Assembly (NCBI GenBank): GCA_003265685.1
Contig: QJOU01000081.1
Span: forward strand, 1-44,468
Source of the DNA: Piscinibacter caeni
GTDB taxonomy: Bacteria > Pseudomonadota > Gammaproteobacteria > Burkholderiales > Burkholderiaceae_C
Length of the DNA stretch: 44,468 bases
Direction: 5' to 3'
Shown: in pieces, positions 8,276 through 31,306 of the stretch
Layout of the letters: the number at the start of each line of letters is the position of its first letter
How positions within the stretch are numbered: position 1 is the stretch's first letter
Notes under the pieces: generated by a model
What the model was told of the DNA's origin: nothing
Seen by the model: only the letters and a program-made list of their open reading frames with translations
The model's database searches: none
Translations under genes and position numbers: made by a program

Positions 8276-8310
8276 TCCGAACCACCACACACACCACGGA
8301 GACCTGTTCG

Positions 8311-10079: not shown

Positions 10080-10091
10080 AGGGATCCCGTC

Positions 10092-11648
10092 ATGAACGAC
10101 AACCAGAACCTGTTCACGGCGCTGCGCGCCGCCTTCCCGGCCGAGCTCGACACGGTCGCGATCGAGACCGGCGACGGCCCGGGCGCGCCGCTTTGCTACA
10201 CCTGGCGCGACCTCGAGCGTGCCACCGCGATGATCGCCAACCTGCTCGATTCGCTCGAGCTGCCGCGCGACGGCGAACACCCGCCGCGCGTGGCGGTGCA
10301 GACCGAGAAGAGCGTCGAGGCACTGCTGCTCTACCTCGCGGTGCTGCGCGCCGGGTATGTCTACCTGCCGCTGAACACCGCGTACCAGCAGGCGGAGATC
10401 GAGTACTTCGTCGGCAACGCCGAGCCGGCCGTGGTGGTGTGCTCGGGCAAGAACTTCGGCTGGGTGTCGAAGATCGCGTTCAAGGCCGGCACGAAGCATG
10501 TCTTCACGCTCAACGACGACCGCACCGGCTCGCTGCTCGAACGTGCCGCGCTGCAGAGCGACCGGCACGTGCCGGCGCAGCGCAGCGCGTCCGACCTGGC
10601 CGCGATCCTCTACACCAGCGGCACCACCGGGCGCAGCAAGGGCGCGATGCTGACGCACGGCAACCTGCTGTCCAACGCGCTGACGCTGAAGGACTACTGG
10701 GGCTGGACCGACGGCGATGTGCTGCTGCACGTGCTGCCGATCTTCCACGTGCACGGCCTGTTCGTGGCCTCGCACGGCGCGCTGCTGAACGGCAGCAAGA
10801 TGCTCTGGTTCTCGCGGTTCGACCCGAAGGCGGTGACGGCGCGCCTGCCCGAGGCCACCGTCTTCATGGGCGTGCCAACGCTGTACGTGCGGCTGCTCGC
10901 CGAGCCCGGCTTCGGGCACGAGGCGTGCCGCCACATGCGCCTGTTCATCGCCGGCTCGGCGCCGCTGCTGATCGAGACCTTCAACGAGTTCCGCGCGCGC
11001 ACCGGCCACACCATCCTCGAGCGCTACGGCATGAGCGAGACGGTGATGCTGAGCTCCAACCCCTACCGCGCCGAGGACGGCGAGCGCCGCGGCGGCACGG
11101 TCGGCTTCCCGCTGCCGGGCGTGCAGCTGCGCGTCAGCGACAAGCAGGGCCGGCCCTGCCCGGCCGGCGAGATCGGCGGCATCGAGGTCAAGGGGCCGAA
11201 CGTGTTCGCCGGCTACTGGCGCATGCCGGAGAAGACCAAGGAGGAGTTCACCGCCGACGGCTGGTTCAGGACCGGCGACGTCGGCAAGGTCGGCGCGGAC
11301 GGCTACGTGACGATCGTCGGCCGCAGCAAGGACCTGATCATCACCGGCGGCTACAACGTCTACCCGGCCGAGATCGAGGGTTACCTGAACGAGATGGACG
11401 GCGTGGCCGAGAGCGCGGTGATCGGCGTGCCGCACCCGGATTTCGGCGAGGGCGTGGTCGCGGTGGTGGTGCCCAAGCCGGGCGCGGCGCCCGAGCCGGC
11501 CGCGCTGATCGGCGCGCTGAAGGGCAGGATCGCCAACTTCAAGGTGCCCAAGCACCTGTTCGTCGAGGCCACGCTGCCGCGCAACACGATGGGCAAGGTG
11601 CAGAAGAACCTGCTGCGCGAGCAGCACAAGGGCCTGTTCGGTGCCTGA
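10092..11648 (+). CDS. matB: Malonyl-CoA synthetase (AMP-forming)
   Basis: A 518-residue acyl-CoA synthetase of the ANL superfamily. The P-loop-like signature YTSGTTGRSKG begins at residue 174. Further core motifs are ERYGMSET, the GWFRTGDVG hinge region and the C-terminal NTMGK with the adenylation Lys at about K502. Length and the adjacent malonyl-CoA decarboxylase identify it as MatB. It makes malonyl-CoA from malonate, ATP and CoA, and MatA then decarboxylates the product. A GAGGGA site precedes the ATG. Substrate specificity is inferred from the operon; a close alternative would be another short-chain dicarboxylate synthetase. Confidence 0.92.
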   Translation: MNDNQNLFTALRAAFPAELDTVAIETGDGPGAPLCYTWRDLERATAMIANLLDSLELPRDGEHPPRVAVQTEKSVEALLLYLAVLRAGYVYLPLNTAYQQAEIEYFVGNAEPAVVVCSGKNFGWVSKIAFKAGTKHVFTLNDDRTGSLLERAALQSDRHVPAQRSASDLAAILYTSGTTGRSKGAMLTHGNLLSNALTLKDYWGWTDGDVLLHVLPIFHVHGLFVASHGALLNGSKMLWFSRFDPKAVTARLPEATVFMGVPTLYVRLLAEPGFGHEACRHMRLFIAGSAPLLIETFNEFRARTGHTILERYGMSETVMLSSNPYRAEDGERRGGTVGFPLPGVQLRVSDKQGRPCPAGEIGGIEVKGPNVFAGYWRMPEKTKEEFTADGWFRTGDVGKVGADGYVTIVGRSKDLIITGGYNVYPAEIEGYLNEMDGVAESAVIGVPHPDFGEGVVAVVVPKPGAAPEPAALIGALKGRIANFKVPKHLFVEATLPRNTMGKVQKNLLREQHKGLFGA

Positions 11649-12580: not shown

Positions 12581-15500
12581 TCAGGCTGACTCGAGGTCCG
12601 GCGTCAGGCGCGCCAGGCCCTCCAGCACCGGGCCGAGCTGCTGCTGCACCGCGTCGCGCAGCCGGTCGAGCTCGGCCGGCGACGCGCCGTGCTCGCAGCC
12701 GGCCTCGAGTGCCGCGGCGGCGCGCTGCAGTGCCGCCATGCCGAGCGTGCCGGAGACGCTCTTCAGGTCGTGCGCCAGCCGCGTGCAGGCCGCGCCGTCG
12801 CCGGCCGCGCGGGCGGCCGCCAGGCGCGCGGTGAACTCGCGCTCGCGCTCGTGGAACATGCGCAGCAGCCGCCGGTACAGCGCCTCGTTGCCCATCACAC
12901 CGGCCAGGCCGGCACGCGGGTCCAGCCCGGGCACGCCGGACAGTTCGCCGTCCGCGCCCGGGCCGGCGGCCGGCCGCACCCAGCGCGACAGCGTCGCGAA
13001 CAGCTCGTCGACGCGGATCGGCTTGGCCACGTGGTCGTTCATGCCGGCCTCGAGCACCCGTTCGCGGTCGCCGGCCATCGCGTTGGCGGTCATCGCGATC
13101 ACCGGCATGTCCTGCAGGCCCGGCCACCGGCGCAGCGCACGCGTCGCTTCGTAACCATCCATCACCGGCATCTGGCAGTCCATCAGCACGGCGTCGAAAC
13201 GCTCGTGCTCGAGCCGGTCGAGCGCGGCGCGTCCGTCGCCGGCGACCGTCACCTCGATGCCGGCGCGGCGCAGCAGGTCGCAGGCCAGCTCCTGGTTGAT
13301 CTCGTTGTCCTCGACCAGCAGCACGCGCGTGCCGGCCAGGCCGGACTGGCGCGCCAGCAGCAGGTCGTGGCGCAGCTCGTCGCGCCGGGCCGAGAGCGCC
13401 GGGCGGCCGAGCGCGGCCGCGCAGGCATCGAGCAGCGCCGACGCGGTGACCGGCTTGGCCAGCAGGCCGGCCACCGGCAGGTGGCGCTCGTCCAGGCGCC
13501 GCTGCGCCTCGTGGCGGTTGAAGGCGGTGACCATCAGCACCGTCGGGCTGGCGTGGCGCAGCGCGGTGTGGCCGAGCTGGTCGAGCAGCTCGATGCCGTC
13601 GGTGCCCGGCATCTTCCAGTCCAGCAGCAGCAGGCGGTAGGGCGCGTCGTCCGCGTCGGCGCGGCGCAGCGCCTGCAGCGCGGCCGAGGCATCGCCGACC
13701 GCCTCCGGCTGCAGGCCCAGCGAGCGGCACATCGCCGTCATCAGCTCGCGGGCCAGCGGGTGGTCGTCGACGATCAGCAGGCGCGCCCCGCGCAGCTCGC
13801 CGGGCGCCGCCGGTGCGGCGTCGGCGGCAGCGGGCTGCAGGCCGAAGCGGGCGCTGAAGTGGAACACGCTGCCGCTGCCCGGGGCGCTGTCCACGCCGAT
13901 CTCGCCGTCCATCAGCGCCACCAGGTGGCGGCAGATCGCCAGCCCGAGGCCGGTGCCGCCGTAGCGCCGGCTGGTCGAGGCGTCGGCCTGGCTGAAGGGC
14001 TGGAACAGGCGCTCGCGCTGCGCGGCGTCGATGCCGATGCCGGAGTCGCGCACCTCGAAGCGCAGCCGCACGGCATCGGCCTCGCGCGAGAGCAGCCGCA
14101 CCGCCACCGTCACCTCGCCCTGGGCGGTGAACTTGACGGCGTTGTTGCCCAGGTTCAGCAGCACCTGGCCGAGCCGCGACGGGTCACCGACCAGTGCCGT
14201 CGGCAGGTCGGGCGGCAGGTCGAACAGCAGCTCCAGGCCCTTCTCGTCGGCGCGCATGCCCACCAGGTGGGCGAACTGGTCCAGCACGTCGCCGAGCCGG
14301 AACGGAATGTGCTCCATGTCGAGCCGGCCGGCCTCGATCTTGGAGAAGTCGAGGATGTCGTTGATGACCACCAGCAGCGATTCGGCGGCGCGGTGCACCT
14401 TCTCGACATAGTTGCGCTGCTTCGCGTCCAGCCCGCTCTGCAGCGCCAGCCACGACATGCCGATGATCGCGTTCATCGGCGTGCGGATCTCGTGGCTCAT
14501 GTTGGCGAGGAATTCGCCCTTGGCGTGGTTGGCCGCCTCGGCCGCCTGGCGCGCCCCGGCCAGCTCCTCGGTGCGTTGCTGCACGCGGCGCTCCAGGTCG
14601 GCGGCCAGCGCGCGCACTTCCTCCTCGGTGCGCCGGCGCTCGGTGGTGTCGGCGAATACCGCCACCGCCCCGCTCACCGCGCCCGCCGCGTCGCGCAGCG
14701 GCCGCGCGGTGGCGGTCAGCCAGAGCCCCTGGTCCGGGCCCTCGCCGGCGCGACGCATGTACAGGTCCTGCTTGTCGACGTCCTCGCCGCGCAGGGCACG
14801 CGCCAGCGGCAGCTCCTCCAGCGGGCAGGGCGTGACGCGGTCCACCCGGTAGAGCGTGAAACGCTCGCGCCAGTTGCCCTTCGGCCCGGTGCTCATGCCG
14901 CGGCCGGCGATGACCTCGGCGGCCGGGTTGGCGAGCACGAGGTCGGCGCGGCGGTCGACCACCAGCACCGAGTCGCCGATGCCGTCGAGCACCTCGCGCA
15001 GGATGACGGTCTGGCGCTGCAGCTCGGCGCGCGAGCGGCGCAGGCGCAGCACGAACACCGTCGCGCCGGCCAGCAGCAGCGCGCCGCCGACCAGCAGCGT
15101 GACCTGCCAGCGCTGCTGCAGCGTGCGCCGCTCGATCTCGGCGGCCTGCTGCTCGCTGCGGCGCGTCAGCTCGGCCAGCTCGCGCTGGCGCGCCTCGCTG
15201 CGGATGCGCGCGGCCAGCTCGAACACCCGCGCGCCGGCCCGCTCGCGCGCCAGGCGGGCGTTCGACTCGGCCGCCTCCAGCGACAGTTCGTAGGCGCGCC
15301 GGTGGTCCCCCTCGGCGGCCGCCACCGCGGCCATGCGCTGCGCGCTCTCGCTGCGGTAGACCGGCAGGTCGATCGTGCGTGCGAGCTGGTAGGCCTGCTC
15401 GGCGCGCGCCCGCGCCTCGGCGAGGTCGCCCAGGCGCTGGGCCACTTCGCTCTGCTCCTTGAGCACGAACCAGCGGCCGATCGGGTTCGGGTGGCGCTCG

Positions 15501-16405
15501 TAGATCGCGGCGGCGCGCTGCAGCTCGGCCTGGGCGGCCTTCAGGTCGCCCTGCAGGCGCAGCTCGAAGGCCAGCGCGAATCGGCTGAGCGCCACCGCGG
15601 TCGGGATGCCGGCCGCCTCGTTGAGGTCGATCGCCTCGCGGTACAGCCGCAGCGCGAGCGGCTTGTCGCCCTGCTTGCTGGCGACGCCGGCCAGGCCGCT
15701 GATCGCCAGCGCCTCGTTGAGCCGCGACCGCCCGGCCACCGCCTGCCTGCGCATCTGCTCGAACTGCTCGCGCGCCTCGGGCAGGCGGTCGCCCAGGTCG
15801 TAGGCCATCGCCAGGCCGCGGTGCGCGTGGGCCAGCGCGATCGGGTCGCCGCTGGAGCGCGCGATCTCCATCGCCTGCAGCGCGACGTTGAGCGAGTCGT
15901 CCAGCAGGTTGGCACGCCGGTAGGTCATCGAGGTGCGCAGCAGCGCCTCGCCCAGCAGGTCGACCCGGTCGGTGCCTTCCAGTGCCGCGAGCGTGCGCGT
16001 CATGATGTCCTGCAGCCGGCCCAGGCGGCCCTGGTTCACGTCGTTCATCGCGATGTTCAGGCCGGCCTCGGCCAGGCCGAGCCGATCGCCGGCCTGCTCG
16101 GCCAGCTCGAAGGCCTGCTGCGCATGCTCGGCCGAGCGCTCGGTCTGCGCCAGGTAGCCCTCGACCCGCGCCTGCAGGTTGAGCAGACGCACGCGGTCAG
16201 CGGGCGGCGCATCGGCCGGCAGGCTGCGCTCGAGCTCGACGGCGCGCGCAAGAGCGGCGGGGGCATCGTTCTCGGCCAGCTGGCGCGCCTCGTCCACCGC
16301 GCGGCGCCAGGCGGCCGGATCCTGCGCCGCGAAGGCTGCCGCGCCCAGGCCGAGCAGCAACCCGGCCAGCCACAGGCGCAGCAGCAATCGGCGGCATCCG
16401 CTCAT
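12581..16405 (-). CDS. Hybrid sensor histidine kinase: TPR sensor, PAS, HisKA, HATPase, two receivers, Hpt
   Basis: A 1274-residue membrane kinase. A signal anchor (about 1-30) is followed by a long, probably periplasmic TPR-like helical region (about 35-370), a charged coiled coil and one TM segment (about 432-455, [17 protein letters not shown]). A PAS domain (about 470-600) follows. The HisKA H-box [10 protein letters not shown] carries H638, and the HATPase has DSGIGID and GGTGLGLAI. Receiver 1 has phosphoacceptor D929 (LLDWKMPG), receiver 2 has D1076 ([11 protein letters not shown]), and the Hpt domain has H1212 ([10 protein letters not shown]). All phosphorelay residues are present. The start at 16405 was chosen over the frame start at 16486 because it begins the hydrophobic anchor. 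No output regulator is adjacent; the nearest gene is the TonB receptor, 67 nt upstream. Confidence 0.93.
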
Positions 16406-16472
16406 GAGGCCCACTGTAGTGCGACGCTGCCCTGCGCCACGGTGGCGGATTCCCGGGGCACTGCAGAACAGT

Positions 16473-19031
16473 TCAGAACTGCACACTCAAACTGGTGGCG
16501 AGCTGCCGGTCGTTGACGAACGCATCGCGCGGCCGCGCGGCGCTGCCCAGGTCGTTGCGGCGCAGCGTGCGCGTCAGGTTCACGCCGTCCAGCGCCCAGG
16601 TCACCCGCGGCGCGACGCGCCAGCGCAGCGAGGCATCGAGCCAGCCGTGCGCACGGGTCCAGACCTGCTGCGCACCGCCGAGGTCGACCACCGGCACCAC
16701 GCCGCTGGCGAAGCGGCTGCGCCAGTTCCAGGCCAGCCGCGCCGACCACCGCCCATGTTCGTACAGGCCGATCAGGTTCGCGCTGTGGCGCGACAGCCCC
16801 TGCAGCGCCACCTCGCGGCCGAGCACGCGATCGAAGGTGCTGCTGTCCACGTGGGTGTAGTTGGCCTGCAGCCCGAGGCCGGACCAGGCACCGGGCAGCG
16901 TGTCGAAGAAGCCCTGCCACGCGAGCTCGGCGCCGCGCACGCGCGCCCGGTCGGCGTTGCGCGGCCGGCTGACGACGTAGACCGCGCCACCATGCTCCTC
17001 CGGCTGTGCGAGGTTGACGACGAAGCCGTCGACCCGCTTCCAGAACAGCGCCAGCGAGGCGCCCGTGCCGGCGCTGCGTTCGTGCTCCAGCCCCAGGTCG
17101 AGGTTGCTCGAGCGCACCGGCTGCAGGTCGGGGTTGCCGGCGCTGCCCTGGTTCAGGTTCGGGTCGACCGGGTTGGGCAGCAGCAGCAGCGAGGGCGAGA
17201 GCTGGTTGAAGTCGGGCCGCGTGATCGTGCGCGAGGCGGCGGCACGCGCCTGCCAGCCCGGTGCCGGGCGCCAGCGCAGGCTCGCGCTCGGCAGCGGGTC
17301 GGTCTCGTCCGTGCGGGCGCGGATCGGCAGCGGCGTGCCGCTGCCGACGGCCTGCGCGCTGTCGGTCGTGCGGCGCGTGTGCACCACGCGCAGGCCGGCC
17401 TGGCCGTCCAGCGCCGTGCCGGCGCGCCAGGGCAGCTGCAGGTACAGCGCGTCGCTGTCCTCGCGGATGCGCCACACGCTCAGCGGCCCGCCGCCGGCCG
17501 GCAGCGGCGTGGTGACGCCGAAGGCTTCGCGCAGCCCGGCCGGATCGCGCGCATCGCCCAGGTCGCCGATCAGGTGGCCGGTGACGCTGGCCGTGCGGCC
17601 GTCGAGGAAGTCGCCGTAGGGGTTGGGCCGCAGGCGGCCGGGCAGGGTCTCGCCCGACGGCCCGGCCAGCGCCACGTCGCCGAAGGCCAGGCCGGGCGCG
17701 TTGTCGGCACGCCGCCGGGCATGCCGCCAGCCGAACTCGATGCGCTCGAGCCAGCCGCCCTCCAGCAACCGAGATGCGTCCACGCGCAGCGCCTGCAACT
17801 CGCCGCGGAACGGGCGGGTGCGGTAGGCCAGGCCGGTGTAGCGCCAGGCCGACGGGTCGTTCAGGTCGGTACCCGCGACCGATGTCGAGGGCACCGGGCC
17901 GGACAGATCGTGCGTGAAGCGGGCCGCGCTGGCGGCCAGGAAGGGCCCGGAGAAGAACAGGTGGTTGAAGCTGCTGGTGTGGCTCAGGTCGGCGTCGAGC
18001 TGCCAGGGCGCACCGTGCCAATGGCCACCGAGGGCCAGCTGGCGGGTACGGTCCACCGTATCGCGCGCGAAGTTCAGCAGCGACACCGGCGCATCCAGCC
18101 AGGTCACCCGGCGGGCGTCGTCGCTGCCCGCGAAGCGCAGCAGGCGGCCGGGCTCGAAGGCGGTGCCGGCCGGCGCGCTGAGGTTGATCTGGTGCGAATC
18201 CTGGCGCGTCTCGAGTTCGGCGAAATGGGCCTCGGCGTACAACTCGAGCCCGTCGGCCGAGCGCCACTGCAGCAGCGCGCCGGCCGCGCTGCGGCGCCGC
18301 CGGCCGATGCTGGTGGTCTCCGAACTGCCGCCCGGCGCGAGGAAGCTGCCGCCGGCCGGATCGGCGTGGCGCACCGGCGTGCCGCTGCTCTTCTGGTCCT
18401 CGCGCCACCAGCGGTCCTGCAGCGCCAGGTTGACGAGCAGCCCGAGTTCGCCGCCACCCGCGCGGCCGCGCCGGCTCAGCAGCAGCGAGGCCTGGCCGGC
18501 GTCGCGATCGGCCAGGTGGCCGCGCATCCAGCGCAGCGAGAACACGCCGGCGTCACCGGCGAAGTCGAACGGCCGCCGCGTGCGCAGGTCGATGCTGCCG
18601 CCGAGGCCGCCTTCGATACGCTCGGCCGAGCTGGTCTTGTGCACGTCGATGCCGGCGAGCGACTCGGCCGCGATGTCCGAGTAATCCATCAGCCGGCCGC
18701 TGCCGGCGGTGAAGATCTCGCGCCCGTTGAGCGTGGTCTCCACCTGAAGCAGGCCGCGCACCGCGGCCAGCGCCCCCTCGCCGCGGTCGCGCGTGAGCTG
18801 CACGCCGGTGATGCGCTGCAGCGCGTCGGCCACGCTCAGGTCGGGCAGCTTGTGGACCTCGTCGGCCACGACGGCGTCGACGATGCCCGGCGCCTCGCGC
18901 TTGCGCGCCTGCGCCGACTCGAGGCTGCGGCGCGTGCCGGTGACCACGACCGGGTCGAGCGGCTCGGCCGCTGCGCCCGCCGCAGGGGCAAGCGCCAGAC
19001 AGCCCGACAACAACACCAACGCCGTCTTCAC
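16473..19031 (-). CDS. TonB-dependent outer-membrane receptor
   Basis: An 852-residue receptor with a signal peptide (1-22, GAAAEP) and a TonB-box-like DPVVVTGTR. The plug domain (about 40-155) contains VADALQRITGVQLTRDRG and the GGSIDLRTRRP region. A long beta-barrel ends in the aromatic LSVQF, typical for BAM recognition. Plug style resembles the large TonB-receptor subfamily common in Xanthomonas and Caulobacter. The ligand cannot be read from sequence; siderophores, oligosaccharides or other polymers are possible. The start is a GTG at 19031, since the nearby ATG at 19039 is closed by a stop. It probably shares a transcript with the hybrid kinase downstream. Confidence 0.9.
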   Translation of the reverse strand: MKTALVLLSGCLALAPAAGAAAEPLDPVVVTGTRRSLESAQARKREAPGIVDAVVADEVHKLPDLSVADALQRITGVQLTRDRGEGALAAVRGLLQVETTLNGREIFTAGSGRLMDYSDIAAESLAGIDVHKTSSAERIEGGLGGSIDLRTRRPFDFAGDAGVFSLRWMRGHLADRDAGQASLLLSRRGRAGGGELGLLVNLALQDRWWREDQKSSGTPVRHADPAGGSFLAPGGSSETTSIGRRRRSAAGALLQWRSADGLELYAEAHFAELETRQDSHQINLSAPAGTAFEPGRLLRFAGSDDARRVTWLDAPVSLLNFARDTVDRTRQLALGGHWHGAPWQLDADLSHTSSFNHLFFSGPFLAASAARFTHDLSGPVPSTSVAGTDLNDPSAWRYTGLAYRTRPFRGELQALRVDASRLLEGGWLERIEFGWRHARRRADNAPGLAFGDVALAGPSGETLPGRLRPNPYGDFLDGRTASVTGHLIGDLGDARDPAGLREAFGVTTPLPAGGGPLSVWRIREDSDALYLQLPWRAGTALDGQAGLRVVHTRRTTDSAQAVGSGTPLPIRARTDETDPLPSASLRWRPAPGWQARAAASRTITRPDFNQLSPSLLLLPNPVDPNLNQGSAGNPDLQPVRSSNLDLGLEHERSAGTGASLALFWKRVDGFVVNLAQPEEHGGAVYVVSRPRNADRARVRGAELAWQGFFDTLPGAWSGLGLQANYTHVDSSTFDRVLGREVALQGLSRHSANLIGLYEHGRWSARLAWNWRSRFASGVVPVVDLGGAQQVWTRAHGWLDASLRWRVAPRVTWALDGVNLTRTLRRNDLGSAARPRDAFVNDRQLATSLSVQF

Positions 19032-20795: not shown

Positions 20796-20859
20796 GTTCT
20801 CTCCTTGATTCAGGTCAGCCGCGGGGTCGCGGCTCGTGGTGCCACTGTCCGAGCCGGCT

Positions 20860-20917
20860 CTGACCGTTGACTGACGCGTTCCCAACACCGGCTGACGCGA
20901 CGCTGATGAGACGCTGA
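20860..20917 (-). promoter_or_regulatory. Five-site TCAG array upstream of the MFS gene
   Basis: Read on the minus strand, TCAG half-sites occupy 20917-20914, 20906-20903, 20895-20892, 20874-20871 and 20863-20860. Their spacing is 11, 11, 21 and 11 bp, one or two helical turns. TGTTGG is conserved in the central gap. The nearest site lies 64 nt before the start codon. The same array precedes the actP operon at 31249-31306. Confidence 0.75.
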
Positions 20918-20962
20918 CAAACTCGGGTGCAACCCGCAGCCCGGCTTGCGCGATGTGGAAAC

Positions 20963-22158: not shown

Positions 22159-24327
22159 TCAGTAGGTCACGCGGGCGTAGTAGGTCTGCTGCGCCGCGTC
22201 GCGCGCCTGGCCGAGGGTGTGGATGCCGCGCTCGGCCAGCAGCGGGATCAGCTTGAGGAACACCTCGGCCGTGACCATCGCGTCGCCCAGCGCGGTGTGG
22301 CGGCCCAGCACCGGCACGCCGAGCCGCTCGGCGATCGCCTCGAGCCGGTGCGACGCCTGCTGCGGGTGCACCACGGCCGACAGCAGCAGCGTGTCGAGCA
22401 CCGGCTGGTCGAACGCGAGGCCGGTGCGCTCGCGCTTGAGCTCGAGGAAGCGCATGTCGAAGGCGGCGTTGTGCGCCACCAGCACGGTGTCCTGCGCGAA
22501 GGCGTGGAAGGCCGGCAGCACCGCGTCGATGGTCGGCGCGCCGCGCAGCATCTCCGGCGTGATGCCGTGGATGGCGATGCCGGCGGCCGGGATGTCGCGC
22601 TGCGGGTCGACGAGCTGCTCGAAGCAGTCCTCGCGGCGCAGCTTGCCGGCGACGATGCGCGTCGCGCCGATCTGGATGATCTCGTCGCCCTCGGAGGGCT
22701 GCAGCCCGGTGGTCTCGGTGTCGAACACGGTGTAGGCCAGCTCGGCAAGGCGCCGATCGGCCAGCTCGCGCGCCTGGTCGGTGGCGCGGAACAGGTCGAA
22801 GTCGTAGACCTCGGGGCGGCTCTCGCTGCGCACCACCATCGCCGCGTCGAGCTGCTCGCCGGCCTCGGCCAGCGGCAGCAGCAGGCGGAAGAAGGACTCG
22901 TGGCGCACGCGCTCGCGCTCGAACCAGAACGCGCCGTCGTGGCGCTCGACCACGTCGCGCACGGTCAGCGCGAGCGTGTCGCCGCCGACGCGCATCGCGT
23001 CGGTCTCCCAGCCGACCACGGTCTCGGTGCTCATCGACGGGCCGGCCCAGACCAGGTCGAGCCGCGCGCGGCCGCCGGCCTCGGCCAGGCGCAGCTGCAG
23101 CACCTTGATCTCGTACTCCTCGACCAGCCGGCCGGCGAGGTACAGCAACGCCTGCAGCAGCGAGAAGCTGTCGACCTTGAGCCACAGCGCGGCGTCGACC
23201 TCGCTGGTGGCGACACGGCAGCCGTGCAAGGTCTCGATGCGCCGCGCCGCGGCGGCCACCAGGTCGGCGCCGAGCATGTCCTCCAGCGGCCAGCGCGTCT
23301 TCATGGTCTGCGCGGTGTGGCTGGCCAGCTCGCGGATGCGCCGGCTCATGGTCTGCACCTCGTCGCGGACGACGCCGAGAAAACGTTCGCGCGTGGGGGC
23401 GTCGAGGTCCTCGTAGTCGAGCATTTCGACGGCGGCCTGCAGGTTGCCGAGCGAGGCCCGGCTGCCCTCGGTGAGGCCCTGCAGCAGCCGGTCGCGCTCG
23501 GACTCGGCGGCGAAGTCGCGCGTGATGTTCTCGAGCATCAGCACGAAGCCGTTCAGCGCCACCTCGCCGGGCGCGGCATCGATGTCCCGGACCGGCGCCA
23601 TCTGCACGCGCAGCAGCTGGCCGGCGCGCGTACCGGTGACGAACTGGGCCGACGGGTGCGCCGCGCCGCGCTGCAGGCGCTGCTGCACGCTCTCCAGCGC
23701 GTGGGCGACGAGCGCGCGGTCGAACACCGCGTAGATCGAGCGGCCCAGGCCGATCAGCTCGGCGCCGTCGGCCACGCTCGGCGCGTGCGAGAGGGCGCGG
23801 AACTGGGTGCGCGCGCGGGCGTTGTAGAGCAGCACGCGGCCGTCGAGGTTGCAGACGACGACGCTCTGCGTCAGCTCGGCCATCAGCGCCGCCAGGCGGT
23901 TGCGCTCCTGCTCGACGCCGCGGCTGGCCTCCTTCACCTGGGCGGCGATGTCGGCGCGCAGGGTGTCGCGTTGCTGCGCGAACTGGTTGATGACGCCCGC
24001 GAGCGCCTTCGCCTCGGCGCTGCCCTGCGGCTCGAGGGTGCGCTGCACGTCGGTGGCGAGCAGCACCTGAGCCTCTTCGGCCAGGCGCGCAGAGGCCGCC
24101 ACCCAGCCCAGGTAGGCCTGGCGCGTGAGCGCGCCGAGCACACCGGAGAGCAGCAGCCAGCCGAGCAGCAGCAATGCCGCGCGCGGTTCGAGCATCGCGC
24201 CGAGGGCGGCGCGTTCGGGCGGCTCGAGCGTGGCGGCGAAGAGGAAGCCACCGGCGATGGCCCAGAAAGCGAGCACGGCGCCGGGGATGAGGGCGGCGAT
24301 GACTTCGCGTTTATCGAACTTGCCCAC
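22159..24327 (-). CDS. Membrane PAS / degenerate-kinase / DEDDh 3'-5' exonuclease fusion
   Basis: A 722-residue three-part protein. Two TM segments (about 9-31 and 49-69) lead into a coiled coil and a PAS domain (about 148-275). A histidine-kinase-like core follows (about 280-515). In it the H-box is replaced (TEGSRASLGN, no His), and the ATP-binding part keeps only the terminal VERHDGAFW-type strand, so it is probably inactive. The C-terminus is a DnaQ-type exonuclease with all catalytic residues: D536 and E538 (FDTETTG), D624 (AHNAAFD), and H677 and D682 (HTALGD). The family context, next to a CBS-DUF294 protein, ActP and an SLC5 kinase, recalls the Vibrio/Pseudomonas acetate-switch loci. 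Substrate and trigger are unknown. Confidence 0.87.
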   Translation of the reverse strand: MGKFDKREVIAALIPGAVLAFWAIAGGFLFAATLEPPERAALGAMLEPRAALLLLGWLLLSGVLGALTRQAYLGWVAASARLAEEAQVLLATDVQRTLEPQGSAEAKALAGVINQFAQQRDTLRADIAAQVKEASRGVEQERNRLAALMAELTQSVVVCNLDGRVLLYNARARTQFRALSHAPSVADGAELIGLGRSIYAVFDRALVAHALESVQQRLQRGAAHPSAQFVTGTRAGQLLRVQMAPVRDIDAAPGEVALNGFVLMLENITRDFAAESERDRLLQGLTEGSRASLGNLQAAVEMLDYEDLDAPTRERFLGVVRDEVQTMSRRIRELASHTAQTMKTRWPLEDMLGADLVAAAARRIETLHGCRVATSEVDAALWLKVDSFSLLQALLYLAGRLVEEYEIKVLQLRLAEAGGRARLDLVWAGPSMSTETVVGWETDAMRVGGDTLALTVRDVVERHDGAFWFERERVRHESFFRLLLPLAEAGEQLDAAMVVRSESRPEVYDFDLFRATDQARELADRRLAELAYTVFDTETTGLQPSEGDEIIQIGATRIVAGKLRREDCFEQLVDPQRDIPAAGIAIHGITPEMLRGAPTIDAVLPAFHAFAQDTVLVAHNAAFDMRFLELKRERTGLAFDQPVLDTLLLSAVVHPQQASHRLEAIAERLGVPVLGRHTALGDAMVTAEVFLKLIPLLAERGIHTLGQARDAAQQTYYARVTY

Positions 24328-24387: not shown

Positions 24388-24756
24388 TCACGCACCTAGA
24401 AGCTCCCGCACCTTCTCAGCCAATTCCTTGGTCGAGAACGGCTTCGTCATGTACGCATCCGCCCCGAGTGCCGACCCCTTCGCGACATCGGTGTCGCGCC
24501 CCTTCGCACTCAGCATCAGGATCCGGACCCCCGCGAGCGACTCGTCCGACCGCACCGCCTGGCACACGTCGAAGCCGCTCCTGCCCGGCATCATCACGTC
24601 CAGCAGCACCAGGTCCGGCTTCAGCTCGCGCACCATCGCCAGCGCCGCATCGCCGTCGCGGGCGATGCTGACCCGGTGGCCTTCGCGCTTCATCAGGAAC
24701 TCCAGCGAGATGACGATGTTCGGCTCGTCGTCGGCGATCAGCACGTGTTTGCTCAT
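24388..24756 (-). CDS. Single-domain (receiver-only) response regulator
   Basis: A 122-residue CheY-like receiver with the full acidic pocket (ADDE near the N-terminus), phosphoacceptor D53 (LLDVMMPGRSG), the conserved Ser/Ala of MLSAKG and the switch Lys in TKPFS. There is no DNA-binding or enzymatic output domain. Its ATG overlaps the stop of the symporter-kinase gene in an ATGA junction, which strongly implies that kinase as partner. The frame continues upstream to 24843, but only from 24756 does the receiver fold begin. The output may be another protein, such as the exonuclease fusion downstream, or the domain may act as a phosphate sink. Confidence 0.93.
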   Translation of the reverse strand: MSKHVLIADDEPNIVISLEFLMKREGHRVSIARDGDAALAMVRELKPDLVLLDVMMPGRSGFDVCQAVRSDESLAGVRILMLSAKGRDTDVAKGSALGADAYMTKPFSTKELAEKVRELLGA

Positions 24757-27386
24757 GAGCTTGTCTCCATCGTTGTCGCTGTGGCGGAAAGCGGCAGTTC
24801 GAAACCGAAGCAGGCCCCCTGCCCCGGCGCCGAGCGCAGCCACATCCGGCCGCCATGGTGCTCGACGATCTGCCGGCTGATCGGCAGGCCGAGCCCGGTG
24901 CCCTGCGGGCGATTCGTCGCCTCGCCGCCCTGGCGGAACTTCTCGAACACCAGCTGCTGCTGGGCCGGAGGCACGCCGGGCCCGTTGTCCTGCACCTCGA
25001 CGCGCACGGCACGCCCGTCGGTCGTCAGCGTGACCAGCACCCGGCCGCGCCCGGCCGGCACGAACTTGGCCGCGTTGGACAGCAGGTTCAGCAGCACCTG
25101 CAGCAGCCGGTCGCCGTCACCGTGCAGCGGCGGCAGCGTGTCGGGCTGCACCACCTCGACCAGGGCGCCGCGTTCGCGGAAGGCCTCGGCGGTGGTCTGC
25201 ACCGCGCGCGCCACCAGCTCGCGCAGGTCCACCGGCTCGTGGCGCCACTCGGCGTGGCCGGACTCGATCTTCGCCATGTCCAGCACCTGGTTCACCAGGC
25301 GCGACAGGCGCTCGGTCTCGCTGACCACCAGGCCGAGGAACTGCTGGCGCTGCTCGGGTTCCATCTGCGGATCGTCGCGCATCAGTTCGGCGAAGGCGCG
25401 GATCGAGGTCAAGGGCGTGCGCAGCTCGTGCGACACCGAGGAGACGAAGTCGTCCTTCTGGCGGTCCAGGTCCTCCAGGCGACGGTTCAGCGCGCGCACC
25501 TGCGAGGCCTCGTCGAGCATGCCGAGGATGTCGGCGCGCGCCAGCGGCTCCTCCTCGGCCACCGCGGCCACCACCACGTGCGCCGAGGCGCTGCCGATCG
25601 CGCCGGCCAGCGCGGTCTCGACGTGCGGCACCAGCTCGGCCTCCGGCACGCCGCGCCGCGCCGCATCGGCGAACAGGCGCTGGGCCGCCTCCGCGCCGAG
25701 GAAACGCGCCGCCAGCAGGCGCAGCTGGGCCAGGCTGGCCGGGCTGCGCCAGGTGCGCGTGGCGGCCGCACCCCGGAACACCTCGACGAAACGCAGCGCC
25801 TGCGCCGCCTCGCGGGCCGAGGGCGTGCCGGCCAGCGACACCAGCACGTACAGGCCGGTGTTGGCCAGCAGGCTCCACAGCAGCGCGTGCGTCAGGTTGT
25901 CGAGCCCGCTCATGCCGAACAGCTGCTCGGGCCGCAGCAGGCTCCAGCCGAACGGGCCGTGCTGCAGGAAGCCCGCATCCATCCAGCCGGACTTGGCGAT
26001 CGACGGCAGCATCAGCGTCCAGGCCCAGAGCAGGAAGCCGGCCGCCAGGCCGGCCAGCGCGCCGGCGCGTGTGCCGCCCTTCCAGTACATGCCCCCGAGC
26101 AGCGCCGGCGCGAACTGCGCCACCGCGGCGAAGCTGATCAGCCCGATGCTGACGAGCGCATAGGCCTCGCCGGCGATGCGGAAGTAGAGGTAGCCCAGCA
26201 GCAGCAGCAGCACGATCACCGTGCGCCGCACCGCCAGCGGCAGCGCGCTCAGGTCGCGCGCGCCGTGGCGGAAGCGCAGCAGCAGCGGCATGACCAGGTC
26301 GTTGCTGACCATGGTGGAGACCGCGATCGCTTCGACGATGATCATGCCGGTGGCGGCCGACAGCCCGCCGATGAAGGCCGCCAGCGCCAGCGCCGGCTGC
26401 TCGGCGGCCAGCGGCAGCGAGATCACGAAGGTCTCGGGGTTGGCATTGCCCGCGCCGAAGTGCAGCAGCCCGCCCAGCGCGACCGGCAGCACGAACAGGT
26501 TGATCAGCAGCAGGTAGAGCGGAAAGGCCCAGCTGGCGCGCTTGAGGTGGCGCTCGTCGACGTTCTCGACCACCATCACCTGGAACTGGCGCGGCAGGAA
26601 CAGCACCGAGAACATGGCCAGCAGCGTCAGCGCGGCCCATTGCCCGCCGGCGAAGCGGTACTCCCCGCCCAGCCCCATCAGTGGCTGCAGCGCGGGCACC
26701 GCGGCGGCGCGCTCGAACACGTCGCGCACGCCGTCGAACAGGCCCCAGCAGACGAACACACCGACCGCGACGAAGGCGAGCAGCTTGACCACCGACTCGA
26801 AGGCCACCGCCGCGACCATGCCCTCGTGGCGCTCCGAGCTGTCGAGGTGGCGCGCGCCGAACGCCACCGTGAAGCCGGCCAGCACCAGCGCGATGTAGAG
26901 CGTGCTGTCGCGCCACCAGGGCGCATGCGCCTCGGCGCCGGCGCCGGTCAGCAGCGCCAGGCCGGAGGCGATCGCCTTCAGCTGCAGCGCCACGTAGGGC
27001 AGGATGCCGACCAGCGCGATCACGGTCACCAGCGCGGCCAGCAGCCGGCTCTTGCCGTAGCGGCTGGCGATGAAGTCGGCGATCGAGGTGATGCGGCCGG
27101 TGTGCGCGATGCGCACCATCTTGCGCAGCACGCTCCAGGCCAGCAGCATCGCCAGCGTCGGGCCGAGGTAGATGGGCAGGAACCACAGGCCCGAGCTGGC
27201 GGCGCGGCCGACGCTGCCGAAGTAGGTCCAGGCGGTGCAGTACACCCCCAGCGAGAGCGTGTACACCCAGGCATTGCCGATCACCGAGCGGCCCGCCCGG
27301 GCGCGCCGGTCGGCCCAGTGCGCCACGCCGAACAGCAGCAGCAGGTAGGCGAACGAGGCGCCGAGCACCAGCGGGGCGGACAGCAT
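24753..27386 (-). CDS. SLC5 symporter-STAC-histidine kinase (CrbS-like sensor)
   Basis: An 877-residue sensor kinase. Residues about 1-490 are a sodium:solute symporter (SLC5) domain with some 13 TM helices (YTLSLGVYCTAWTYFGSVG; ADFIASRYGKS). A STAC-like helical linker follows (about 520-600). The kinase core has the H-box SHELRTPLTS with H653, then an HATPase with NLLSNAAKFV, VQDNGPGVP and GTGLGLPIS. This architecture is shared with CrbS and CbrA. CrbS governs acetate use and CbrA carbon-source responses. The nearby actP and DUF294 genes favour a CrbS-like acetate role. The symporter part may transport the ligand or merely sense it. It starts 4 nt after the small two-TM gene and overlaps the response regulator. 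Confidence 0.92.
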   Translation of the reverse strand: MLSAPLVLGASFAYLLLLFGVAHWADRRARAGRSVIGNAWVYTLSLGVYCTAWTYFGSVGRAASSGLWFLPIYLGPTLAMLLAWSVLRKMVRIAHTGRITSIADFIASRYGKSRLLAALVTVIALVGILPYVALQLKAIASGLALLTGAGAEAHAPWWRDSTLYIALVLAGFTVAFGARHLDSSERHEGMVAAVAFESVVKLLAFVAVGVFVCWGLFDGVRDVFERAAAVPALQPLMGLGGEYRFAGGQWAALTLLAMFSVLFLPRQFQVMVVENVDERHLKRASWAFPLYLLLINLFVLPVALGGLLHFGAGNANPETFVISLPLAAEQPALALAAFIGGLSAATGMIIVEAIAVSTMVSNDLVMPLLLRFRHGARDLSALPLAVRRTVIVLLLLLGYLYFRIAGEAYALVSIGLISFAAVAQFAPALLGGMYWKGGTRAGALAGLAAGFLLWAWTLMLPSIAKSGWMDAGFLQHGPFGWSLLRPEQLFGMSGLDNLTHALLWSLLANTGLYVLVSLAGTPSAREAAQALRFVEVFRGAAATRTWRSPASLAQLRLLAARFLGAEAAQRLFADAARRGVPEAELVPHVETALAGAIGSASAHVVVAAVAEEEPLARADILGMLDEASQVRALNRRLEDLDRQKDDFVSSVSHELRTPLTSIRAFAELMRDDPQMEPEQRQQFLGLVVSETERLSRLVNQVLDMAKIESGHAEWRHEPVDLRELVARAVQTTAEAFRERGALVEVVQPDTLPPLHGDGDRLLQVLLNLLSNAAKFVPAGRGRVLVTLTTDGRAVRVEVQDNGPGVPPAQQQLVFEKFRQGGEATNRPQGTGLGLPISRQIVEHHGGRMWLRSAPGQGACFGFELPLSATATTMETSS

Positions 27387-27390
27387 CGCG

Positions 27391-27606
27391 CTACCTCGCC
27401 TCCTCGTCCTCGTCGGGCCCGGCCTCGGCGACCCAGGCCGCCGCGCCGATCAGCACCGCCCAGCCGCCGAACACCGCCAGCGGCAGCAGCGGCAGGCCCC
27501 ACAGCATCACGCCGCGGTCCCACAGCGTCAGCAGCGGGAAGTTGAGCAGCAGCCAGCCGGCCGCGAAGAGCGCGAGCAGACGCTGGTGGCGCTGGTTCGC
27601 GTTCAT
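27391..27606 (-). CDS. Small two-TM membrane protein next to the symporter-kinase
   Basis: A 71-residue protein with two hydrophobic helices (about 9-30 and 36-60) and an acidic tail (PDEDEEAR). Size and layout resemble the small accessory subunits found beside sodium:solute symporters (DUF3311/DUF485-like), though I cannot name the family with certainty. It lies 4 nt after the DUF294 stop and 4 nt before the kinase start, so it is part of a tight operon. A structural or assembly partner of the SLC5 domain of the kinase is the simplest role. Confidence 0.75.
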   Translation of the reverse strand: MNANQRHQRLLALFAAGWLLLNFPLLTLWDRGVMLWGLPLLPLAVFGGWAVLIGAAAWVAEAGPDEDEEAR

Positions 27607-27610
27607 GTCG

Positions 27611-29050
27611 TCACAGCGTGTCGAGCCGGAAGCGCGTGCGCAGCAGCGCGCGGAAGCGCTTGACGATGGCCAGCGCGTCCTTGAGCTGGTCGCGGTCCAT
27701 CGTGCTCAGGTCGGACGGCCGAACCAGGTTCGAGGCCTCCTGCCCGCCGGCGCGCTGGCGCAGCTGGTGGCGCAGCTTCAGGCCCATCAGGTAGTGCAGC
27801 GCCTCGAGCAGGTCGGCCGCCAGCGGTGCGTCGAGCTGGCCGAGCTCGCGCAGCTTCGCCAGACGCACCGCGGTGCCGGTCTCGCGCAGGCCCTGGCGCA
27901 GCGCGAGCGCGCGCACGCCGTGCACGATCGGGAAGCTGCCGAGCTTCTTCAGGTCCAGCGGCTGCTCGTCGGCGCGCGCGGTCAGGCGGCTCCACCAGCT
28001 GACCGGTTCCTCGAACTGGTCGGCCGCGGCGGCGAAGCGGGCATAGAACGCGTCGCTGCCGGCGAGGATCTGCTCCAGGTGCGCGCGCAGGGCCTCCAGC
28101 AGCGTGGCGTCGCCGGCCACCGGTGCGGCGTCGAGGAAGATGGCCAGCTGCATCACGCCCTGCGGGTCGCTGCCGTAGACCCAGTCGCGCAGCGTGCTGC
28201 GAAAGCCCGCCACCGGCGCGCGCCAGGCGCGGTTGATCAGCATGATGCCGCCCGGGCAGGGCGGCCAGCCGCAGTCGATCAGCGCGGCGTTGAAGCGGCC
28301 GGCGATCGCGTCGAGCTCGGCGCACTCGTAGCCGTCGCGCAGGATCAGCGCGTTGTCCTGGTCGGTCTTGAGGATCTGCTCGCCGCGGCCTTCGCTGCCC
28401 ATCACGAGCAGGCAGGAGTTGGCGACGAGTTCCGCCGGCGCCTCCAGGTGCCAGAGCCGCGCGAACAGGCGCCGGTTCAGTTCGCCGACCAGGCGCGCGA
28501 CACGCTCGACCTTGATGCCACCGTCGTGCAGCAGGGTGACCATCGATTCGATGCGCTGCGCCGCGGCCTGCAACTCGGCGACGCTGGCCGCCTCGTCGAT
28601 CTGCAGCGCGACGATGTGCGAATGGTTGGCGACGAAGCTGACCAGGTCGAGCTGGCCGAGCACGCCGAGCACCTGCTCGCCATCGCGCACCAGCAGGCGG
28701 TGCACGCGGTGGCGCACCATCAGCCACAGGGCCTCGAACAGGTCGGCGTCGGCGTCGACGTCGATCAGCGCGAAGCGTGCCACCTCGCGCACCGGCAGCG
28801 CGGCCGGCGGCACGTCGCGCAGCAGCGCGTCGCGCAGGTCGGTGGTGGTGAAGATGCCGAGCCGCTCGCCCTGTTCGCCGGCGTCGCGCACCAGCGTGTG
28901 GGTCAGCCCGTGCGCGGACAGTTCGCGGCACACCGACACCACGTCGAGCGCCCCGTCGACGTAGTGCGGCTTGCGAACGTAGGCGTCGCGGACGCGGGCG
29001 GTGACCAGCGAGAGCATCTCGCGCTGGCTGTCGGAGGCGCGGTTCGGCAT
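27611..29050 (-). CDS. CBS-pair / DUF294 putative nucleotidyltransferase
   Basis: A 479-residue cytoplasmic protein. Two CBS motifs (about 20-150; LGIFTTTDLRDALL and LGVLGQLDLVSFVA) probably bind an adenine nucleotide. A DUF294 nucleotidyltransferase-like domain follows, with the motif GSEGRGEQILKTDQDNAL (about 215-237) carrying the paired acidic residues, and then a helical DUF294 C-terminal domain. The family is recurrent beside acetate permease, DnaQ-like exonuclease and CrbS-type genes in gamma- and betaproteobacteria. Its reaction is unknown; transfer of a nucleotide to a protein partner is plausible. A run of nine C (minus strand) touches the start codon, leaving an unusual ribosome-binding region. 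Confidence 0.88.
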   Translation of the reverse strand: MPNRASDSQREMLSLVTARVRDAYVRKPHYVDGALDVVSVCRELSAHGLTHTLVRDAGEQGERLGIFTTTDLRDALLRDVPPAALPVREVARFALIDVDADADLFEALWLMVRHRVHRLLVRDGEQVLGVLGQLDLVSFVANHSHIVALQIDEAASVAELQAAAQRIESMVTLLHDGGIKVERVARLVGELNRRLFARLWHLEAPAELVANSCLLVMGSEGRGEQILKTDQDNALILRDGYECAELDAIAGRFNAALIDCGWPPCPGGIMLINRAWRAPVAGFRSTLRDWVYGSDPQGVMQLAIFLDAAPVAGDATLLEALRAHLEQILAGSDAFYARFAAAADQFEEPVSWWSRLTARADEQPLDLKKLGSFPIVHGVRALALRQGLRETGTAVRLAKLRELGQLDAPLAADLLEALHYLMGLKLRHQLRQRAGGQEASNLVRPSDLSTMDRDQLKDALAIVKRFRALLRTRFRLDTL

Positions 29051-29129: not shown

Positions 29130-29158
29130 GATCATCCGATCACCCGGTCATCCGGTCA
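29130..29158. repeat. Imperfect 8-bp tandem repeat at the actP stop
   Basis: Units GATCATCC, GATCACCC, GGTCATCC and partial GGTCA follow one another from 29130. The last TCA is the actP stop codon on the minus strand. Confidence 0.65.
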
Positions 29159-30877
29159 GTGGCCCGAGGCCCCCGCCGCGCCGATGCCCGTCTCCGAACG
29201 CACCTGCTGCGCCAGGAAACCCTCGCGGTCGACCTTGGCGCGCGCGCCGCGGTCGAGGATCGAGAACAGCCAGATGCCGACGAAGCCGATCGTCATCGAG
29301 AACAGCGCCGGCGAGGTGTAGGGGAACAGCGCCGAGCCCTTCGGGTTGCCGAGCGTCGCTTCCCACACCGAGGGCGAGACCACGGTCAGCACCACCGAGC
29401 TGATCAGCCCGAGGAAGCCGCCGATCACGGCGCCCTTGGTGGTGCAGTCCTTCCACAGCACGCTCATGAAGAGCACCGGGAAGTTGGCCGAGGCCGCGAT
29501 CGCGAAGGCCAACGACACCATGAAGGCGATGTTCTGCTTCTCGAAGGCGATGCCCAGCACCACCGCGATGATGCCCAGCGCGACGGTCGTCATCCGCGAG
29601 ACCTTCAGCTCCGAGGCGCTGTCGGCCTTGCCCCGCTTGATGACCGTGGCGTACAGGTCGTGCGAGACCGCCGAGGCGCCCGACAGCGTCAGGCCCGCCA
29701 CCACCGCGAGGATGGTCGCGAAGGCCACCGCCGAGATGAAGCCGAGGAACACGTTGCCGCCCACCGCGTTGGCGAGGTGGATGGCGGCCATGTTGCCGCC
29801 GCCGCGCAGCGCGCCCTTGGCGTCGAGGAACTCGGGGTTGGTCAGCACGAAGGTGATCGCGCCGAAGCCGATGATGAAGGTCAGCAGGTAGAAGTAGCCG
29901 ATCCAGCCGGTCGCCCACATCACCGACTTGCGCGCTTCCTTGGCGGAAGGCACGGTGAAGAAGCGCATCAGGATGTGCGGCAGGCCGGCGGTGCCGAACA
30001 TCAGCGCCATGCCGAAGCTGATCGCCGAGATCGGGTCCTTCACGAAATTGCCCGGGCCCATGATCGACTGGCCGATCTTGGCGGCCTCCTCGGCCGTCTT
30101 GCCGGTGGCCAGGCCCGCCTTGATCTCGACCGCCTTGGCGAACATCGCCTCCGGGCTGAAGCCGAAGTTCCACAGCACCATGAAGGCCATGAAGGTGGCG
30201 CCGCCGAGCAGCAGGCAGGCCTTGATGATCTGCACCCAGGTGGTGGCCGTCATGCCGCCGAACAGCACGTAGACCATCATCAGCGCGCCGACGATCACGA
30301 CCGCGATCCAGTACTCCAGACCGAACAGCAGCTTGATGAGCTGGCCCGCGCCGACCATCTGCGCGATCAGGTAGAACGCGACGACGACCAACGTGCCCGA
30401 GGCGGCGAAGATGCGCACCGGCTTCTGGTCGAAGCGGAACGCGGCCACGTCGGCGAAGGTGAACTTGCCCAGGTTGCGCAGCCGCTCGGCCATCAGGAAG
30501 GTGATGACGGGCCAGCCGACCAGGAAGCCGATCGAGTAGATCAGGCCGTCGAAGCCGGAGGCCATCACCGCGGCCGAGATGCCGAGGAAGGAGGCCGCGG
30601 ACATGTAGTCGCCCGCGATCGCCAGGCCGTTCTGGAAGCCGGTGATGCCGCCGCCGGCGGTGTAGAAGTCGGCCGCGCTCTTGGTCCTGGCCGCGGCCCA
30701 CTTGGTGATGAACAGCGTGAACAGCACGAACACGCCGAACATGCCGATGGCCGTCCAGTTGGTGGCCTGCTTCTGCGCCTGGCCGAGATCGGCGCCGGCG
30801 GACCAGGCCGCGAAGGAGACGCCGAACAGCGCGAGCAGCGTGAGCACGCGTCGGGTGGTGACGAACGAGCCGCTCAT
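29156..30877 (-). CDS. actP: Cation/acetate symporter
   Basis: A 573-residue sodium:solute symporter of the ActP (acetate/glycolate permease) group. It has about 13 TM helices and the family motifs [30 protein letters not shown] and [14 protein letters not shown] cleavable leader-like N-terminus (about 1-28) is typical of ActP. The region about 245-300 matches the cytoplasmic loop of DUF485-associated symporters. It imports acetate and other short monocarboxylates across the inner membrane. Its ATG overlaps the DUF485 stop (ATGA), the conserved DUF485-actP pair. The operon promoter carries a TCAG array, and the CrbS-like kinase locus lies downstream. Confidence 0.93.
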
Positions 30878-31182
30878 TTCAGCACCGCCTTCTTGACCGC
30901 GTCGGTCAGGTCGTCGTACTGGCTGTTCGCGCGCAGCACGTAGATGGTCGTGATGACGACCGTGAACACGATGACGCCGAAGCCCACCGGGATGCCGACG
31001 GTCATGACGCCGTCGCCGAGTTTCTGCGACAGGAACTCCTTGTTGAAGGCCACCAGCACGATGAAGCCGTAGTACACGACCATCATCGCCGCCGTGAGCC
31101 ACCAGCCGAAGCTCGAGCGCTTGGCTTTCAGTTCCTGGTACTTCGGATGGCTGGCAATGCGCCGAACCAGATCGTCTTCCAT
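30874..31182 (-). CDS. DUF485 membrane protein, ActP partner
   Basis: A 102-residue protein of the DUF485 (YjcH) family. The N-terminal segment [19 protein letters not shown] is the family signature. Two TM helices follow (about 27-48 and 60-84), then a short charged tail. It is almost always encoded just upstream of actP and is thought to assist the symporter, though its exact role is unproven. The 4-nt overlap with actP indicates translational coupling. The start ATG has GAGGAGA at suitable distance. Confidence 0.92.
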
Positions 31183-31248
31183 GACGCAGTCTCCTCACGT
31201 TGAGTCGCGGGCCCCGACGGGACCTTGCCCGCATGGTCGAAGAAGCGA

Positions 31249-31306
31249 CTGACCATGCTCTGACGGCAGGCCAACAGGGGCTGACGTGAAGCTGAACCGA
31301 AGCTGA
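31249..31306 (-). promoter_or_regulatory. Five-site TCAG array upstream of the DUF485-actP operon
   Basis: On the minus strand TCAG half-sites occupy 31306-31303, 31295-31292, 31284-31281, 31263-31260 and 31252-31249. Spacing is 11, 11, 21 and 11 bp, with TGTTGG in the central gap, identical to the array before the MFS gene. The last site lies 66 nt before the start codon. Direct repeats in an 11-bp phase suit tandem binding by an OmpR/PhoB-type regulator (inference). Confidence 0.78.

Follow-up and report, generated by a model that had tools for sequence, protein, structure and literature searches.

Two transcription units for putative carboxylate transporters lie on the minus strand of the window, that is, the whole 44,468-nucleotide stretch of DNA that was analysed, and each is preceded by an ordered array of short repeats (Table 1). 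The first encodes an MFS transporter of MHS type, whose top NCBIfam match is the metabolite/H+ symporter family TIGR00883 (360 bits in two stretches, for a cut-off of 443) and which contains an insert visible by eye. The second starts with a DUF485 gene and continues with actP, the product of which passes the cut-off of the ActP subfamily model NF006903 (954 bits for a cut-off of 750) and does not reach that of the equivalog TIGR02711. The first-pass annotation had described five TCAG half-sites on the minus strand before the MHS gene, within 58 bp and spaced 11-11-21-11, all of which prove exact at the positions listed in Table 1, and had placed the array 64 nt upstream of the gene, which matches the 64 bp that we count to the ATG at 20795. 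It had also claimed that the same spacing, with a TGTTGG core, recurs before DUF485-actP some 10 kb away; the second array is indeed there, 10,389 bp from the first, again spaced 11-11-21-11 and with TGTTGG in its long interval.

Table 1. Coordinates of the arrays, their putative target genes and other features mentioned in the text (window positions unless a contig is named)
Feature	Position	Strand	Details
MHS array, six half-sites	20860-20917	-	five exact TCAG (20917-20914, 20906-20903, 20895-20892, 20874-20871, 20863-20860) and a degenerate TTGG (20885-20882)
-10-like hexamer GACAGT	20844-20849	-	10 bp past the last half-site of the MHS array
Palindrome CGGGTTGCACCCG (as read on the minus strand)	20924-20936		its GGGTT begins 17 bp before the first GTCAG
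MHS-type MFS transporter, 558 aa	19119-20795	-	putative first target; Pfam Sugar_tr, MFS_1
DUF485-actP array, six half-sites	31249-31306	-	five exact TCAG (31306-31303, 31295-31292, 31284-31281, 31263-31260, 31252-31249) and a degenerate TTGG (31274-31271)
-10-like hexamer GACCAT	31233-31238	-	10 bp past the last half-site of the DUF485-actP array
DUF485 protein	30874-31182	-	first gene of the putative second target operon; Pfam DUF485
ActP, cation/acetate symporter	29156-30877	-	Pfam SSF
Kinase with transporter-like N-terminal half	24388-29050	-	HisKA, HATPase (Pfam)
722-aa protein	22159-24327	-	C-terminal DnaQ-like exonuclease domain (RNase_T)
Malonate-type cluster	6298-11648	+	
Large hybrid kinase	12581-19031	-	PAS_4, HisKA, two receivers, Hpt, TPR
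Pho box, canonical-looking	L369:6223-6265 (G000:C4)		upstream of pstS, 10 bp before a -10-like hexamer
Candidate TctD/PmrA/QseB-like regulator	G000:C39, about 16306-16977	-	with a 2CSK_N-domain histidine kinase

The long interval of each array holds GTTGG, the TTGG of which lies 10 bp after the third TCAG and 11 bp before the fourth. Because that position reads GTCAG in a Variovorax array (L059) and GTAAG in four genomes (G004, G142, G226 and G213), the TTGG is, as judged from the sequence, a sixth and usually degenerate half-site. It sits in the half-site register, and the arrays are therefore better read as six half-sites spaced 11-11-10-11-11. The five exact TCAG of the earlier description stand, but its 21-bp gap does not survive as a plain interval, since a degenerate sixth half-site lies inside it.

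Between the two arrays lies a kinase gene whose product has a transporter-like N-terminal half (by eye); the gene overlaps one for a receiver-only regulator and adjoins a DUF294-CBS gene. The kinase/regulator pair looks as if a CrbS-type hybrid kinase had been divided between two genes. Also between the arrays is the gene for a 722-aa protein that ends in a DnaQ-like domain and has no Pfam match over its N-terminal 500 residues; relatives have it next to the kinase as well. The signal may come from this set of genes (kinase, receiver-only regulator, DUF294 and DnaQ fusion).

Rarity and conservation of the arrays

Within the window TCAG-N7-TCAG occurs six times, against 0.78 ± 0.86 in shuffled sequences (0.92 expected when the shuffle test is run on the complement), none of the 100 shuffles reaches six, and all six copies fall inside the two arrays. 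Across the 6.87-Mb genome both arrays, and nothing else, are returned by the five-site pattern (reversed control, 0) and by a core with 21 specified bases when three mismatches or fewer are allowed (control, 0). A four-site pattern with up to two mismatches gives five matches (control, 0), four of which are the arrays in two registers, the other lying elsewhere (C1:168907). These figures bear out the first-pass view that two matching arrays are unlikely to have arisen by chance.

The array is found well beyond this genome. Allowing up to three mismatches over 24 bases, it occurs at 35 places, in 34 of the 250 genomes searched from the family and 23 of 141 genera, with no match for the reversed control. 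The plain five-site pattern with a 15–19 bp gap occurs at 12 places in 11 of the 250 genomes: eight have the 58-bp form with GTTGG, and four (L008, L013, L014 and L017) have a 59-bp form that resembles plain repeats and has no assigned transporter. When GTDB contigs were scanned with the exact 58-bp pattern, 58 stretches were retrieved, of which we kept for the gene check the 24 with Burkholderiales in their titles (in one case just Pseudomonadota), leaving out 34 from other groups. Within 450 bp downstream of these 24 arrays, some of which are near-duplicates (those of L029 and L046 are identical), we found DUF485-actP in 13 contigs, an MHS gene in six, DUF4212 in three and neither target in two, namely L033, where a porin-like frame comes next (by eye), and L037, whose array is a simple tandem repeat. 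The expectation that the array would stand before carboxylate transporter genes is thus borne out by 22 of the 24 Burkholderiales contigs, whereas the enrichment before acyl-CoA genes that had also been expected was not seen among the loci opened.

A consensus of 50 distinct arrays reads GTCAG-N7-TCAG-N6-GtcAG-cc-N2-tGTTGG-N4-GCGTCAGagc-N2-GGTCAG-N10-nAnnnT. The A and the T of the terminal -10 hexamer are each conserved at 98%, in a set of arrays selected by the half-sites, but not by this hexamer.

Ladders of variable length before MHS genes

Matches to the MHS gene at E <= 1e-100, paralogues included, are present in 173 of the 250 genomes, and their upstream regions carry a promoter-proximal pair of half-sites plus none, two or four more. 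In 94 ladders with a strict core, the number of half-sites is two (34 cases), three (4), four (45) or six (11), that is, even in 90 of 94, counts that ignore kinship. Spacing is 11 in two-site ladders, 11-11 in three-site ladders, 11-11-11 (34 cases) or 10-11-11 (11 cases) in four-site ladders and 11-11-10-11-11 in six-site ladders. The upstream stretches are not a random sample, having been chosen from the MHS match list by identity and spread over genera, with 28 chosen genomes added. In the set used for shuffling (76 genomes, 62 with the strict core), that core appears in 0.03% of shuffled stretches.

A search for four half-sites followed by the -10 hexamer gave 60 places in 59 of the 250 genomes, against three places in two genomes for the reversed control. 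Among the 30 places that were opened, 24 lie before an MHS gene by comparison and one more does so by coordinates (G096), one lies before DUF485 (L279) and four are elsewhere (L276, L288, L289 and L302). L276 is beside a frame with weak DUF294 likeness, L289 precedes a 98-aa frame without Pfam family, and L302 (in genome G188, about positions 1500-1554, reverse strand) has four exact GTCAG at 11 bp before a TctB-like gene (by eye), without a fitting -10 hexamer.

Gene order provides a further line of evidence. In 11 loci the DUF485 and MHS genes were found to diverge, and 10 of these have a second ladder that points towards DUF485, so that two oppositely oriented ladders share one intergenic region (DUF485 also occurs in the loci of two more opposite-strand cores, where the orientation of the MHS gene is ambiguous). 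The predicted co-regulation of MHS and DUF485-actP, read from one window, therefore recurs in other genera with a different gene order.

A palindrome with GGGTT lies upstream of many of the longer ladders. All 11 six-site ladders and 30 of the 45 four-site ladders have GGGTT starting exactly 17 bp upstream of their first half-site; among the other 15 four-site ladders, nine have a nearer GGGTT (the script took the first), two have it at 16 bp, one at 39 bp and three have none. None of the 34 two-site ladders has GGGTT at 17 bp, and the palindrome is absent from the 30 bp before the actP array of the window. A loose TTCnCA..GAAA element was also noticed further upstream in 20 of the 94 ladders.

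Operator type and putative mechanism

The ladder is probably an operator of the OmpR type, a reading that rests on three properties of OmpR/PhoB operators found here: (i) half-sites stand head to tail one helical turn apart, at 11-11-10-11-11, in both arrays and in the 11 six-site ladders, (ii) half-sites are paired, as the even numbers in 90 of 94 ladders indicate (kinship again ignored) and (iii) nAnnnT lies at 10 bp, a class II position for which no -35 box is needed, the promoter itself being predicted. An OmpR-type regulator had been named in the first-pass annotation, and the one-turn head-to-tail register, the two-half-site steps and the constant spacing from the -10 hexamer all speak for it.

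Other regulatory systems show parts of this architecture. Upstream of pstS, the same genome has a pho box, TTGTCAC-N4-CTGTCAC-N10-TAGAGT, that matches the ladder exactly in its GTCA-N11-(-10) register but is built on a different half-site; PstS, PstB, PhoU and PhoB pass their NCBIfam cut-offs. Pho box and ladder have in common GTCA half-sites, the 11-bp register and this position, but the former is made of TGTCAC half-sites and serves phosphate genes. As far as the available part of the source goes, the closest published architecture is that of E. coli ArcA sites, in which an 11-bp repeat occurs two to five times (PMC3798270). ArcA too is an OmpR-family regulator, with 10-bp half-sites at a centre distance of 11 bp, and its sites mostly have three to five repeats beyond or including the basic pair. 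However, it is a redox global regulator with another half-site, for which odd repeat numbers are usual, whereas the ladder is nearly always even. The RpuS/RpuR-mctP system of Sinorhizobium, as described in the available part of PMC9100948, likewise has a two-component system that drives a monocarboxylate symporter via a promoter direct repeat, but that repeat is imperfect, lies between -80 and -43, has another sequence and is of another class. No description of the ladder was found by title or abstract in the open-licence papers searched.

In the mechanism that we propose, each array would be a promoter operator whose GT[C/A]AG half-sites are read head to tail by dimers of an OmpR/PhoB-family response regulator, which would stack at 11-bp steps. 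The promoter-proximal dimer, sitting 10 bp upstream of the -10 hexamer, would stand in for a -35 box and recruit RNA polymerase (class II activation), and the regulator would turn on the MHS transporter and DUF485-actP jointly – and in relatives DUF4212 genes too. It is likely that the two arrays are such a shared operator, through which one regulator co-activates both units, and comparative genomics favours the original proposal that the acetate symporter and the MHS transporter answer to a single regulator (34 of 250 genomes, 22 of 24 contigs and the facing ladders). We infer binding, activation and signal at the ladder from DNA sequence; what it supports well is a conserved, putatively OmpR-type operator common to two carboxylate-transporter promoters, with an unusually clean natural length series.

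Candidate regulator and alternative readings

As for the protein that would read the ladder, a TctD/PmrA/QseB-like response regulator encoded beside recA is the best candidate, an assignment which in our judgement falls just short of probable. This 223-aa protein has a receiver and a Trans_reg_C domain, and its gene is followed by one for a histidine kinase with a 2CSK_N domain; recA is its neighbour in the genome of the window and, judged by eye, in G184, whereas G029 and G155 lack this arrangement. Of the 36 regulators taken from five genomes, those of its group are by far the best conserved (77-84% to the genome of the window), a ranking that covers 36 of 56 regulator loci and leaves out 20. 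The G029 protein scores 240 bits with the TctD equivalog NF012023, the best of 99 NCBIfam families and below the cut-off of 337, followed by PmrA (212 bits) and QseB (203 bits), each under its cut-off.

The nearest solved relatives of the candidate are BasR/PmrA (8jo2 and 4s04). PmrA recognises a head-to-tail pair, CTTAAT and CCTAAG (PMC3973317), and, according to the part of PMC4660055 available, contacts bases through N188 and N196 of its recognition helix, with T187, V192 and H195 nearby. The candidate keeps Asn188, Val192 and His195 but has Arg in place of Asn196, the position of the guanine-contacting Arg201 of PhoB, and a half-site between GTCA and TAAG would fit these recognition-helix residues. 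The PmrA (BasR) box itself, in the available text of both papers, differs from the ladder in having two half-sites and other target genes.

The distribution of the candidate follows that of the ladder. It was found in 228 of the 250 genomes at 1e-80, and a looser search, which covered 18 of the 22 genomes without such a match, gave absence (best match at most 51% or none) in G033, G159 and G241, which belong to one genus, and in G079 and G090; G156 (81%, residues 68-222) and G074 (74%, residues 1-165) have no match at 1e-80 and were counted as bearing the candidate. The five near-complete genomes without it (three genera) all have the MHS gene and none has the ladder core, against 93 of 104 genomes with it (p = 4e-5, or p = 0.002 when each genus lacking the candidate is counted once, both ignoring kinship). 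G104 (76% complete), where the ladder is present and the candidate was not found, is a counter-example that was set aside from the 104-genome count; taken as an absence, it gives a core in one of six genomes without the candidate (p = 2e-4). An earlier tally of 115 upstream stretches had the core in 91 of 108 with the candidate and in none of seven without. Dropped from the core count were MHS matches only 57-61% identical and without core in G158 and G240 (candidate present) and in G101 and G098 (absent), as well as a second, core-less MHS copy in G248. A further counter-example is G188, a genome without the candidate that has the four exact GTCAG before its TctB-like gene. In addition, the strict core is missing in 11 of the 104 genomes with the candidate; it is also absent from G192, the tested genus-mate of G090, where the candidate is present. 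Independent losses are few, three of the five candidate-less genomes being of one genus. The link between candidate and ladder is correlative, and plausible.

No ladder was seen (by eye) before the candidate's own gene in 11 loci, and autoregulation was set aside on this count. Beside the arrays, a comparison of 36 regulators with 20 neighbourhoods, 23 named contigs and the window returned no OmpR-type DNA-binding regulator, the neighbourhoods ending within 2-18 kb; receiver-domain matches were obtained at 10 places, none of them reaching the DNA-binding part. A RegB/RegA-like pair (by eye) is present in the neighbourhood of L142.

Among the alternatives, the likeliest keeps the OmpR-type operator and changes its reader, namely another OmpR-family regulator, and we consider it possible while leaning against it. 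The genome of the window has 36 Trans_reg_C matches, one of which was profiled, and G188 has its exact half-sites without the recA-linked protein, but such a reader would have to be squared with MHS ladders in none of five genomes lacking that protein against 93 of 104 having it, and with G029 (2.6 Mb, 99% complete), which has only three OmpR-type regulators yet keeps a two-site ladder (L235). That the reader is PhoB, and the ladder a variant of its box, is very improbable. PhoB does read (T)GTCAT boxes with 11-bp spacing (in the available part of PMC4513871), and the GTCA register and -10 distance of the ladder equal those of the pho box in the same genome. However, that box before pstS is built of TTGTCAC and CTGTCAC, another half-site and a form never seen in the ladder, and PhoB was rejected as the binder on this account; the ladder has no CTGTCAT-like half-sites, its GTCA is followed by G in 98-100% of cases, and its last two GTCA are as a rule preceded by G or C. 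To our knowledge, acid transporters are no usual Pho genes.

The genes between the arrays invite a different account, in which the CrbS-like kinase acts via a CrbR-like LuxR regulator, perhaps at the GGGTT palindrome, the ladder being secondary. A transporter-fused kinase, a receiver-only regulator, DUF294 and a DnaQ fusion do recur in relatives, and control of actP by CrbS/R, with a kinase of this transporter-fused kind, is known from Pseudomonas (PMC5715377). Even so, we find this account unlikely: CrbR is a LuxR-type regulator whose published (ACTU) site, in the part of PMC5715377 available, is a short, imperfect inverted repeat just upstream of the promoter, where the present loci have direct repeats, and CrbR was discarded as the ladder's binder for that reason; the local receiver-only regulator was discarded likewise, having no DNA-binding domain; and the palindrome is absent before the actP of the window and, at 17 bp, before two-site ladders. 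There is, finally, next to no likelihood that the repeats are a functionless tandem-repeat accident. Some matches elsewhere are indeed plain repeats (L037 and the four of 59-bp form), but spacers differ between the half-sites of the ladder, and the array is kept before the same genes in many genera, which, together with its genome-wide rarity, contradicts such an origin.

Returning to the recA-linked regulator and an OmpR-type operator, a bolder picture can be drawn, which we offer tentatively and rate as rather less than probable. In it, a two-component switch would control monocarboxylate uptake across the family Burkholderiaceae, with this regulator reading an operator of variable length; whole dimer sites (22 bp) would be gained or lost between the -10 box and a palindromic anchor that stays fixed, and the number of dimers would set promoter strength or threshold. 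If this is true, the acetate symporter would share a regulon with a widespread and uncharacterised MHS transporter (173 of 250 genomes), and the regulator, which is nearly universal (228 of 250 genomes), would gain a testable role. The natural two-, four- and six-site versions of one promoter offer a ready-made experiment on the number of dimer sites.

Two further gene groups of the window may be mentioned. One is a malonate-type cluster with a GntR-FCD regulator, malonyl-CoA decarboxylase, a TctC receptor and an AMP-binding enzyme, and the other is a large hybrid kinase adjoining a TonB-dependent receptor.
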